64,000 bases of DNA from Lachnospiraceae bacterium (lineage in GTDB: Bacteria; Bacillota; Clostridia; Lachnospirales; Lachnospiraceae), in contig JAUNON010000004.1 of NCBI GenBank assembly GCA_030537145.1, forward strand, positions 6,513 to 70,512, given 5' to 3'. A program made the translations under genes and the position numbers. Positions within the stretch are counted from its first letter, which is position 1, and the number at the start of each line of letters is the position of its first letter. This document shows positions 43,945 through 61,260 of the stretch, piece by piece. The notes below the pieces were generated by a model. The model saw only the letters and a list, made by a program, of their open reading frames with translations, ran no database searches and was not told the origin of the DNA.

Positions 43945-44877
43945 TTACTGCCATCCGTCTGTGCCGTAGTCATCTACATTGTCGGCTGTTACAAGGAATG
44001 TCTCGATCGGAATATATGCTTCCACTTCTTCGCCATCCAGCCAAGCGTATGCAGTTTCAGCAATGGTCTTGCCGATGGTGATCGGAGACTGAGCGCCGGT
44101 TCCTTCCAGGATCGTATCCTTCAGCAGAGCCTTTACATCCGGAGAACCATCAACACCGTAAATCAGAGGAGTAACGCCTGCTGCGTCTGCTGCTGCGTAT
44201 GCACCCAGAGCGGTCGGGTCATTTCCGCCGAAAATAGCAACTACATCCGGATTAGCGGTCAGAAGGTCAGTAGCTTTTTCATTCGATACCTGCTGATTGC
44301 CCTGTGCATCCTGCTGTCCAACTACATTAAAGGTAACGCCGGACTCTTCGATCGCATCCAGGAAACCATTGGTTCTGTCTGTTACAGACTGCATCGTCGG
44401 GGAGTCAAGTACCAGGATATCTCCGCCCTCGGGAACCTTCTTTGCCAGATCCTCACCGCATACATAGCCTGCATTGTAGTTATCGGAACCAGCGTAGGAT
44501 ACCAGATAGCTCATATCGCCAACCTCTGTATCAAAGCCGAACATGGGGATCTCTGCTTCCTTCAGAGCATCCAGAGCCGGGATAATACCGTCAGCATCTA
44601 CCGGATTAACGAACATCAGGTCGATATTCTGAGAGATCAGATCCTCTACCTGGTCGATCTGAGTATTGGAATCATTACCCGGATCCACAGAGATCAGCTC
44701 ATCACCGTTTGCCTCTACTACTTCTCTGATAGCGCCCTCAAGTGCTACGAAGAACGGGTTCGTTCCATCCATACAGGTATAACCGATCTTCAGGCCTTCT
44801 GCGGATGCGCTCATGCCTGCCAGAGCTGTCATAGCTGCTGTCACTGCTGCCAATTTAACAAGTGTTTTTCTGTTCAT
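43945..44877 (-). CDS. Ribose-type sugar-binding protein
   Basis: Delivers the sugar to the RbsA/RbsC transporter. 310 residues. Signal peptide MNRKTLVKLAAVTAAMTALA is followed by SASA-EGL, with no lipobox cysteine. Periplasmic-binding-protein type 1 fold, with DPGNDSNTQIDQVEDLISQNIDLMFVNPVDADGI, GGNDPTALGA and YGVDGSPDVKALLKDT. The anchored protein at 48409-49353 is a clear paralogue. AGGAGG precedes the ATG. Confidence 0.95.
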   Translation of the reverse strand: MNRKTLVKLAAVTAAMTALAGMSASAEGLKIGYTCMDGTNPFFVALEGAIREVVEANGDELISVDPGNDSNTQIDQVEDLISQNIDLMFVNPVDADGIIPALDALKEAEIPMFGFDTEVGDMSYLVSYAGSDNYNAGYVCGEDLAKKVPEGGDILVLDSPTMQSVTDRTNGFLDAIEESGVTFNVVGQQDAQGNQQVSNEKATDLLTANPDVVAIFGGNDPTALGAYAAADAAGVTPLIYGVDGSPDVKALLKDTILEGTGAQSPITIGKTIAETAYAWLDGEEVEAYIPIETFLVTADNVDDYGTDGWQ

Positions 44878-44892
44878 TGTTCATCCTCCTTA

Positions 44893-44908
44893 TTGGAAAC
44901 GTTTTAAA
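44893..44908 (-). promoter_or_regulatory. Cre-like site (CcpA) in the leader
   Basis: Plus strand TTGGAAACGTTTTAAA, an imperfect match to the catabolite-responsive element WTGNAARCGNWWWCA, failing at the last CA. It lies between the promoter and the start codon, where CcpA binding would block transcription. Confidence 0.55.
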
Positions 44909-57951: not shown

Positions 57952-59340
57952 TCAATTAATCAATCCTTTTTCCAAATTCCTTTTGGGCGCAAAAAGCAGG
58001 TATCCTTCCTGCGCCTCCGCCTGCAGGGTACCGGATAAAATCTGATTTTCGCAGTTGCCGTCAGCCGGGATCACGGCACGGATATATTCTTTTGTATATC
58101 CCACATAGTATTCCCCGCTTTTCAGAGAAAGTTTCTCCTCGAAAAGGATCTCACAGTCCCTGCCGATCCATTCCTGCTCAAATGCAGCCTTATTTTTCCT
58201 GTTCAGTTCCAGAAGCACGTCACTGCGGGCCGCCTTCACGGCCTCAGTAACCTGCCCCGGCATTTCCGCCGCCCGGGTGCCCTTCCTTTTGGAATATTTG
58301 AAAATGTGCGTCTCATAAAGCTTCGCTTTCTCCAGGAAGGATACGGTCTGCGCAAATTCCTCCTCCGTCTCTCCCGGGAAGCCTACGATTACATCTGTGG
58401 TCAGGGCAGGCCGGTCAAAATAGTCCCGCAGAATGCCGCAACGCTTCAAATATTCCTCCGCCGTGTATCTGCGGTTCATCCGCTTCAGCACCGTATCGCA
58501 GCCGCTCTGCAGAGACAGATGAAAATGAGGGCAAAGCTTGGGCAGACGGCTCATAGCTGCAGCAAACTCCTCCGTTACAATTCCCGGCTCCAGCGACCCC
58601 AGCCGGATTCTGCTTATGCCTTCTATCTCATGAACCTGCCGGATCAGCTCCGTCAGACTGCTGTCCTGATCGGTTCCGTAGGAGCTTAAATGGATTCCGG
58701 TCAGCACCACCTCCCGAACGCCGTTTTCTGTCAACGCCCGAATCTCCCGGAGTACCTCCGAAAGCTCCCGGCTTCTGGCCCGCCCTCTGGCATAGGGAAT
58801 GATGCAGTAGCTGCAAAACTGGTTGCATCCGTCCTGCACCTTAATATAAGCTCTGGTGTGCGCCTCTGTCCGGGTAATAAAAAGCGATTCATATTCCTTC
58901 GTATGATTCACATCAATGATCTGCTCTGACGGACAGGACTCCTGCGGTCCGGCTCCTGCTGCCGCGCTTTGCCGTTCCTGCTCTGCCTCATATTCCTGCA
59001 GCACCGCTGCCAGGTCCTTCTTCCGATTATTCCCAAGAATGATATCTGCCTCCACCGCCAGGCCGGTTCGTTCCTTTGCCGTCTGCACATAGCAGCCCGC
59101 CGCCACCACAATCGCATTCGGATTCAGCTTCTTTGCCCTATGAAGCATCTGCCTGGATTTCCGGTCTGCAATATTTGTGACAGAGCAGGTATTGATGACG
59201 TATACATCCGCTCCGGGCTCAAAGGGCACAATCTCATAGCCTGCCTGCTCCAGAAGCTGCTGCATCGCTTCCGTCTCATATGCATTTACCTTGCACCCCA
59301 GATTATGAAGCGCCGCTTTTTTTCCGTTTTTTTTCATCAT
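57952..59340 (-). CDS. mtaB: tRNA methylthiotransferase MtaB
   Basis: Adds a methylthio group to t6A at tRNA position 37. 462 residues. The N-terminal MTTase domain has Cys16, Cys52 and Cys83 for the auxiliary cluster. The radical SAM motif CNQFCSYC lies at 172-179. A C-terminal TRAM domain follows (about 380-445). AAGGAGCGAAAGC precedes the ATG. A Gln/Ala-rich linker (about 115-138) separates the domains. Confidence 0.96.
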   Translation of the reverse strand: MMKKNGKKAALHNLGCKVNAYETEAMQQLLEQAGYEIVPFEPGADVYVINTCSVTNIADRKSRQMLHRAKKLNPNAIVVAAGCYVQTAKERTGLAVEADIILGNNRKKDLAAVLQEYEAEQERQSAAAGAGPQESCPSEQIIDVNHTKEYESLFITRTEAHTRAYIKVQDGCNQFCSYCIIPYARGRARSRELSEVLREIRALTENGVREVVLTGIHLSSYGTDQDSSLTELIRQVHEIEGISRIRLGSLEPGIVTEEFAAAMSRLPKLCPHFHLSLQSGCDTVLKRMNRRYTAEEYLKRCGILRDYFDRPALTTDVIVGFPGETEEEFAQTVSFLEKAKLYETHIFKYSKRKGTRAAEMPGQVTEAVKAARSDVLLELNRKNKAAFEQEWIGRDCEILFEEKLSLKSGEYYVGYTKEYIRAVIPADGNCENQILSGTLQAEAQEGYLLFAPKRNLEKGLIN

Positions 59341-59479: not shown

Positions 59480-59508
59480 TTGACTTTTATTATTATTAAC
59501 GTTAAGAT
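59480..59508 (+). promoter_or_regulatory. Promoter of the HPr-like gene
   Basis: -35 TTGACT (59480-59485), 17-bp spacer, -10 TAAGAT (59503-59508), 41 bases before the ATG. Confidence 0.78.
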
Positions 59509-59549
59509 ATGCGTATAAATCACTTTATATCTTATGGAGGAAATGGCGA

Positions 59550-59780
59550 ATGAAAACAGTTCAGATTTCATTAAATTCGATTGACAAGGTAAAATCTTTC
59601 GTCAATGATATTACAAAATTTAACTATGACTTCGATTTAGTATCCGGAAGATATGTCATTGATGCCAAATCAATTATGGGAATTTTCAGCCTGGATCTGT
59701 CCAAACCGATTGACCTGAGCATTCACGCAGAAGATGACATTGATGAGATCCTCGAAACCCTGAAGCCGTACCTGATTTAA
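59550..59780 (+). CDS. HPr-fold protein lacking the catalytic histidine (Crh-like)
   Basis: 76 residues. RYVIDAKSIMGIFSLDL (about 34-50) is the HPr signature around the regulatory serine, here Ser41. The region that in HPr carries the PTS-phosphorylated His15 is SIDKVKSF, with no histidine, so it cannot carry phosphate in sugar transport. It fits the idea of Crh, a B. subtilis HPr paralogue that has only the Ser46 site and co-activates CcpA. It is an isolated plus-strand gene with its own promoter and terminator. Confidence 0.82.
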   Translation: MKTVQISLNSIDKVKSFVNDITKFNYDFDLVSGRYVIDAKSIMGIFSLDLSKPIDLSIHAEDDIDEILETLKPYLI

Positions 59781-59811: not shown

Positions 59812-59842
59812 GTCCCTGGGCCATCCGCCCAGGGATTTTTTT
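59812..59842 (+). terminator. Terminator of the HPr-like gene
   Basis: TCCCTGGG (59813-59820) and GCCCAGGGA (59827-59835) with a 6-base loop and seven T residues. The TIR repeat starts one base later. Confidence 0.9.
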
Positions 59843-59843
59843 G

Positions 59844-60006
59844 TATAAGTCCAGTCTCAAAGCAGAGACGGATGGGCTGCTGGCAGGCCATTCCGGCTAT
59901 GCTTTCGAGACGACAACAGGTATGAGGAAGCAGGGCGGTTAGCCCGAATTCCGAATAGCTGTAGGATTGCGGAAGCACAAAGTGCGGAGCAATCCGTGGA
60001 CTTATA
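59844..60006. repeat. TIR repeat element, 163-bp copy
   Basis: Terminal inverted repeats TATAAGTCCA (59844-59853) and TGGACTTATA (59997-60006). The inside closely matches the 208-bp copy at 24940-25147 but has a single 45-bp GAAGCAGGGCGG unit. Inserted just behind the HPr-like gene terminator. Confidence 0.88.
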
Positions 60007-60017
60007 TTATTCGTGGC

Positions 60018-60076
60018 AGTCCAGTCTCAAAGCAGAGACGGATGGACTGCTGGCAGACCATTCCGGCTATGCTTTT
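60018..60076. repeat. Truncated third TIR element copy
   Basis: Starts AGTCCAGTCTCAAAGC and matches the first 59 bases of the element (after the TATA end) to GGCTATGCTTTT, then stops. It lies 11 bases after the full copy and 5 bases before the thiI stop codon. Confidence 0.78.
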
Positions 60077-60081
60077 GCATT

Positions 60082-61260
60082 CTATTCTATATGAATCACT
60101 TCCGCAGTCTCAATCGCCGTCTGCACCAGCTCTTCGATCTTTTCTGACAACTTCAGCTCCGAGCGCCGGATGACGTTCAGATTCGGCTTTGTTACCGGAT
60201 GCTTTGCCACAAAGATGGTACAGCAGTCCTCAAAGGGCAGGATCGATGTTTCGTAGGTCCCGATTTTTTCTGAAATATCTACGATATCCTGCTTATCGAA
60301 GGCGATCAGCGGCCGGAATACCGGCATGGTGCACACCTCATTGGTGGCCGCCAGGCTCTGCATCGTCTGACTGGCTACCTGTCCGATGCTCTCTCCGGTC
60401 ACAAGGGACAGACATTTCTTCTCCCTGGCAAAATGCTCCGCCAGCCGCATCATATACCGGCGCATGATAATAGTCAGCTCCTCATGAGGGCACTTTTCAT
60501 AGATGTAAAGCTGAATATCTGTAAAATTCACCACATGCAGATCAATCGGGCCGGTATATCGGGCGATCTGTCTGGCCAGATCCACCACCTTCTGCTTGGC
60601 GCGCTCGCTGGTGTAGGGCGGTGCATGAAAATATGTGGCATCCAGGGTCACGCCGCGCTTGGAAATCATATAGCCGGCCACCGGACTGTCGATCCCGCCG
60701 GACAGCAACAGCATGGCCTTTCCGTTGGTTCCCACCGGCATTCCTCCCGGCCCCGGAATAATCTTGGAATAAATATAGATCTTTTCCCGGATTTCCACAT
60801 GAACCATGATCTCCGGCGTATGCACATCCACAGAGGACTCCGGAAACGCATCCAGAATCCTTCCCCCCAGATATGCATTGACCTCCATGGATTCTATGGG
60901 ATAATTCTTTCTGGCTCTTCTGGTATCGACCTTGAAGGTCTTTCCCTTCATATCATAAACGTCGGTAAGAAAAGCAATCACATCATTGCCTAATTCCTCC
61001 AACCCCTTATCTTCCGTTTTCATCACGGGGCAGATTCCCACAATACCGAATACCCGCTGCAATGCCTCAATGGTCTCGTCAAAATCAAAGAGCCCCTCCG
61101 CCTCTGCATAAATCCTTCCCTGTTCCCGGTATACATGAAAATCCCCGTCCGTCTTTTCCAGGGCACGGACGATCTGGCGCACCAACGCCTCCTCAAACAG
61201 ATGGCGGTTCTTCCCTTTTATGCCGATTTCCCCGTATTTGATTAGAAATGTCTTAAACAT
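60082..61260 (-). CDS. thiI: tRNA 4-thiouridine sulfurtransferase ThiI
   Basis: Makes 4-thiouridine at tRNA position 8 and can supply sulfur for thiamine. 392 residues. Layout: ferredoxin-like N-domain, THUMP (about 60-165), and the PP-loop ATPase with LLSGGIDSPVAGY (about 184-196). It lacks the C-terminal rhodanese domain of E. coli ThiI, as in B. subtilis. The cysteine desulfurase upstream is its likely sulfur donor. Confidence 0.96.
   Translation of the reverse strand: MFKTFLIKYGEIGIKGKNRHLFEEALVRQIVRALEKTDGDFHVYREQGRIYAEAEGLFDFDETIEALQRVFGIVGICPVMKTEDKGLEELGNDVIAFLTDVYDMKGKTFKVDTRRARKNYPIESMEVNAYLGGRILDAFPESSVDVHTPEIMVHVEIREKIYIYSKIIPGPGGMPVGTNGKAMLLLSGGIDSPVAGYMISKRGVTLDATYFHAPPYTSERAKQKVVDLARQIARYTGPIDLHVVNFTDIQLYIYEKCPHEELTIIMRRYMMRLAEHFAREKKCLSLVTGESIGQVASQTMQSLAATNEVCTMPVFRPLIAFDKQDIVDISEKIGTYETSILPFEDCCTIFVAKHPVTKPNLNVIRRSELKLSEKIEELVQTAIETAEVIHIE

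Follow-up and report, generated by a model that had tools for sequence, protein, structure and literature searches.

HPr kinase (HPrK) of Bacilli phosphorylates a serine when ATP and fructose-1,6-bisphosphate are high and removes the phosphate when phosphate is high, and the textbook model built on these bacteria treats it as the Gram-positive carbon and energy sensor, read via HPr, Crh, and CcpA. Here, we ask what place in this scheme belongs to a small HPr-like protein of a Lachnospiraceae bacterium that keeps the regulatory serine and lacks the PTS histidine. A preliminary description, made from the 64,000 nucleotides of DNA analyzed here (the window), had labeled this protein Crh-like and had it working with CcpA, plausibly at a cre-like site in the same window.

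A single-cistron gene between mtaB and thiI

The gene (59550-59780, forward strand) starts with ATG and encodes 76 amino acids (MKTVQISLNSIDKVKSFVNDITKFNYDFDLVSGRYVIDAKSIMGIFSLDLSKPIDLSIHAEDDIDEILETLKPYLI). A ribosome-binding site, GGAGGA, lies 8 bases 5′ of the ATG (59536-59541, forward strand), upstream of it a consensus scan, and only that, marks a promoter-like TTGACT-17-TAAGAT (59480-59508, forward strand), and an intrinsic terminator follows 32 bases 3′ of the stop codon (59812-59836, forward strand). The gene is a single cistron, alone between mtaB (57952-59340) and thiI (60082-61260), both of which run on the opposite strand. Right after it, the intergenic DNA holds a near-identical pair of GTCCAGTCTCAAAGCAGAGACGGATGGNCTGCTGGCAG... 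sequences (59846-59900 and 60018-60075), about 170 bases apart.

An HPr fold without the histidine loop

The protein matches the HPr family PF00381 over residues 16-72 (25 bits against a curated cut-off of 23, E 2e-5), and among solved structures it comes closest to Crh and HPr chains in the PDB (E ~6e-4). Its AlphaFold model has the HPr fold, an open-faced beta sandwich (pLDDT 94.6), and the top structural matches to this model are all HPr or Crh (best Z 9.8, rmsd 2.3 over 75 residues). Within KSIMG (codons 40-44, 59667-59681, forward strand), Ser41 aligns with Ser46 of HPr, and its codon (59670-59672, forward strand) would specify the predicted HPrK phosphorylation site. At codons 9-16 (59574-59597, forward strand), where HPr has GIHARPA, alignments place a shortened NSIDKVKS, i.e., the His15 loop is deleted, which goes beyond mere substitution. 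Since GIHARPA is swapped for this shorter stretch, the protein, hereafter the short-loop protein, has no counterpart of His15, Arg17, or Pro18; its sole histidine is His59. It would stand outside the phosphate relay of the PTS. The two phosphosite claims of the preliminary description, a retained regulatory serine and a missing PTS histidine, were thus confirmed, the second extending to the whole loop. Compared to HPr (PtsH), the short-loop protein shares the fold, the Ser46 region, and a Pfam score above the cut-off; it differs in having neither the phospho-acceptor histidine nor the HARP loop, and in occurring in genomes that lack Enzyme I.

Relation to Crh

The short-loop protein also resembles Crh of Bacillus (PDB 1ZVV/1MO1): both proteins combine the HPr fold, the absence of the PTS histidine, and the KSIMG serine, and 1ZVV superimposes on the short-loop model over 75 residues (Z 9.1, rmsd 2.2). 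However, the His15 loop is deleted in the short-loop protein, not substituted, Arg17 is absent, and the gene stands between mtaB and thiI, outside the yvcJ-yvcK-whiA-crh gene order of Crh. A true Crh is found elsewhere in the same genome, on contig C109 downstream of whiA (L133, 6563-6823); its histidine loop reads KQDREP, and its serine lies within NAKSIMG. Among 28 whiA-adjacent HPr-family genes sampled, the serine was kept in all 28 and the histidine was gone from 25, mostly replaced by Glu.

A tree built from 158 sequences sets the short-loop family apart from HPr, Crh, and B. subtilis Crh by a branch of SH-aLRT 100; the short-loop side also takes in diverged paralogs and a PfkB-fused domain, and inner forks are weak because the alignment has only 84 columns. 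Crh orthology is ruled out by this tree together with synteny, i.e., the mtaB-thiI locus and the whiA-linked Crh elsewhere. The label "Crh-like" therefore describes the retained serine and lost histidine well enough, and fails as a statement of orthology. Beyond the gene studied here, the genome encodes three more histidine-less HPr-family proteins with KSIMG or KSLMG (L133 6563-6823, L134 3307-3567, and L100 3962-4204), namely the Crh linked to whiA, a protein encoded beside an HD-domain response regulator, and a diverged paralog from the short-loop family.

Conservation and spread across Clostridia

We next consider how widespread the short-loop protein is. It was found in 89 of 98 relatives, often with 80-99% identity to relatives within the window's family (Lachnospiraceae), and a class-wide sample of 393 genomes gave a strong match in 213 genomes from 52 families. 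Members include proteins of Acetivibrio straminisolvens, A. mesophilus (a close homologue), Pseudobacteroides cellulosolvens, Thermoclostridium caenicola, Anaerotruncus, and Ruminococcus flavefaciens, and the mtaB/IreB/RuvX neighborhood of the gene is seen again in other families of the class. Across 153 distinct sequences, D29, K40, S41, and L48 are fixed and most of DLxSGRYxVDAKSIMGIFSLDLSKPI is nearly invariant. Purifying selection is strong: summed over within-genus pairs, 1644 synonymous codon differences stand against 337 non-synonymous ones, and the pair closest to the window's gene has dN 0.008 and dS 0.53.

Given its presence in 89 of 98 relatives, this purifying selection, and its own promoter-like sequence, ribosome-binding site, and terminator, the reading frame stands well above chance. 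The invariance of K40-S41 in 153/153 sequences likewise indicates that the protein is not a recent decay product. Decay of HPr in one genome, which the preliminary description had named as the outcome that would undo its reading, is ruled out by distribution and selection, while its suggestion of a separate clostridial invention was borne out to the extent that the proteins form a family of their own, on their own tree branch and in 213 of 393 genomes. We read the short-loop protein as a member of an ancient, class-wide clostridial family.

Co-occurrence with HPr kinase

HPrK was present in 207 and absent in 6 of the 213 genomes with a strong short-loop match, vs. present in 104 and absent in 76 genomes without the short-loop protein (Fisher p ~1e-23, with genomes counted as independent and phylogeny ignored). 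The six exceptions are assemblies 90-95% complete, and five of the six families they belong to include other members with both genes. From this gene content, we infer that the short-loop protein is a substrate of HPrK.

The association is sharpest in 21 genomes from 8 families (19 from the class sample plus G063 and G097) in which the short-loop protein is the sole HPr-family protein beside HPrK, i.e., PF00381 is empty or gives only the weak match expected from the short-loop gene. Searches of these genomes, some of them metagenome-assembled, on which the absence calls partly rest, found no Enzyme I in 21/21, no MgsA in 19/21, and no LacI-type HTH domain in 8/21; in six of these eight (G187, G315, G343, G358, G403, and G457), the ccpA model likewise found nothing. 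HPrK has no known HPr-type partner there besides the short-loop protein, and, judged by gene content, none of its known outputs (PTS, CcpA, and MgsA) can be generally needed.

Possible Crh-type roles: CcpA and methylglyoxal synthase

These genomes bear directly on whether the short-loop protein has the role of a Crh, with HPrK phosphorylating Ser41 and the protein then binding CcpA and repressing or activating genes at cre sites. The serine motif is identical, the window's genome is rich in LacI-family regulators (12 HTH matches), and Crh-like/CcpA control has been assumed in work on T. saccharolyticum, for which a Crh match is reported (PMC3526391), and on C. cellulolyticum, in which CcpA-like proteins were suggested as partners of the "Crh-like" Ccel_0806 (PMC3656788). 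By its description, Ccel_0806, which may be either a short-loop protein or a whiA-linked Crh, is a Crh-like phosphocarrier homologue in a host said to have neither an HPr ortholog nor a cognate PTS EII (PMC3656788). Against such a role, the Arg17-bearing loop is deleted, the short-loop protein and HPrK are kept together in genomes without any LacI-type regulator, no protein of the window's genome passes the curated ccpA cut-off, and this genome already holds a true Crh. We therefore regard a Crh role as unlikely, and the earlier claim of partnership with CcpA is weakened by the lost loop and by the persistence of the HPrK/short-loop pair without LacI-family regulators.

The cre-like site itself exists: the palindrome TTAAAACGTTTCCA (44894-44907) lies 17 bp before the start of the sugar-binding protein gene (43945-44877, reverse strand) of the ribose-type ABC operon. 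However, cre matches in the window are near chance level, with one match to the strict pattern vs. 1.15 expected and, slightly above chance, 12 matches to the loose pattern vs. 6 expected, a count of 12 being reached in 4 of 100 shuffles with palindromic sites counted twice, and nothing ties the short-loop protein to this operon.

Besides binding CcpA, B. subtilis Crh inhibits MgsA when unphosphorylated (PMC9631020, PMC10714963), and the short-loop protein might control methylglyoxal synthase in the same way. This control is established in B. subtilis, and two MgsA-like proteins occur in the window's genome, but MgsA was absent from 19 of the 21 genomes that leave HPrK the short-loop protein as sole HPr-type partner. 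As a general target, MgsA is ruled out for such genomes, and we consider this role very improbable overall.

PTS HPr without Ser46

The HPr encoded next to Enzyme I in the window's genome (G000:C87:8394-8621, in L137 and L107) keeps His15, reads SADASRLMAIMG, and lacks Ser46. Across the window's family, HPrs encoded next to Enzyme I keep His15, but Ser46 is missing from 18 of 22, with Arg, Lys, or Ala in its place (the others are L036, L041, L042, L046, L048, L051, L061, L228, L233, L236, L241, L244, L247, L269, L271, L274, and L278), and nearly all sampled Ser46-less HPrs group in one clade (SH-aLRT 97). With Ser46 lost, HPrK should be unable to control these HPrs; given that Crh and the short-loop protein lack His15, the phosphosites for PTS and for HPrK would therefore sit largely on separate proteins. 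We found no paper describing this split in the open-access literature searched, which is no proof of novelty. For comparison, HPr of C. difficile is phosphorylated at Ser45 (PMC8730811). No short-loop family member was found reported in the phosphoproteomics literature, and a C. thermocellum paper (PMC12506098) holds no phosphorylation data on a protein of this type.

These HPrs also inform a further possibility, namely that the link to HPrK has been lost, Ser41 is kept for the fold or for helix capping, and the short-loop protein is a constitutive binding module. The Arg17 loop forms part of the surface that HPr presents in its known complexes, so that its absence could alter recognition of the short-loop protein by HPrK, and six genomes carry the protein without a detected HPrK. 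However, K40-S41 is absolutely conserved, the protein is nearly absent outside HPrK genomes, and PTS HPrs of the same genomes, sharing the same fold, accept Arg, Lys, or Ala at the serine position. Loss of the HPrK link thus seems quite unlikely.

A putative second output of HPr kinase

Overall, we consider it probable that the short-loop protein is an HPrK substrate that reports the carbon and energy state to a non-PTS target, which at least in the 21 genomes would also be distinct from CcpA. Since the protein is kept with HPrK where Enzyme I, other HPr or Crh, mostly MgsA, and sometimes LacI-type regulators are absent, it would need neither CcpA nor MgsA. If the behavior of HPrK carries over from Bacilli, the kinase would phosphorylate Ser41 at high ATP and fructose-1,6-bisphosphate and dephosphorylate it at high phosphate, and either the phosphorylated or the unphosphorylated form would bind the target via the face around Ser41, putatively the conserved D29-L-x-S-G-R-Y and DAKSIMGIFSLDLSKP. 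Sequence, predicted fold, degree of conservation, genome distribution with HPrK, and the split from Crh are observed, and phosphorylation by HPrK, the direction of the signal, and the identity of the target are what we infer in this scheme. In another phylum, the HprK of Xanthomonas (PMC6916182) offers a parallel to this scheme in that HPr kinase serves regulation rather than transport; there, the kinase acts on PtsH, whereas the short-loop protein has no histidine site and Enzyme I is absent from key genomes.

More tentatively, with the balance slightly against it, Clostridia as a whole may have a second HPrK output that depends on neither PTS nor CcpA, carried by an ancient histidine-less HPr family that is retained even after loss of every known HPr/Crh pathway, with the two phosphosites of HPr divided between proteins in the window's family. 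The short-loop partner outlives PTS, Crh, MgsA, and CcpA in dominant gut and cellulolytic clostridia, and its target would add a missing branch to the picture of their carbon control.

Pointers to the target

Among possible targets, a metabolic enzyme, for example a sugar kinase, seems likeliest: in two species of the window's genus (G000 and G004), a PfkB fructokinase bears a fused short-loop domain at its N-terminus. Both fusions (L101 of G000, contig C81, 2957-4186, reverse strand; L283, 1492-2700, forward strand) have a ribosome-binding site before the short-loop domain, which carries NAKSMLG and is a diverged relative seen in one genus. The fusion is a candidate HPrK-controlled sugar kinase; in the window's genome, it neighbors genes for mannitol dehydrogenase, a GntP permease, and a ROK regulator. 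A structure model of the PfkB fusion was discarded (pLDDT 41). A second pointer comes from family f36, where the short-loop gene directly follows a phosphoribulokinase/uridine-kinase-like gene, and both this neighbor and the PfkB fusion are weak hints to the target class. There, a same-strand row (L138 4840-7369, L139 4902-7274) comprises the phosphoribulokinase/uridine-kinase-like gene, the short-loop gene, IreB, RuvX, and a DUF1292-like gene.
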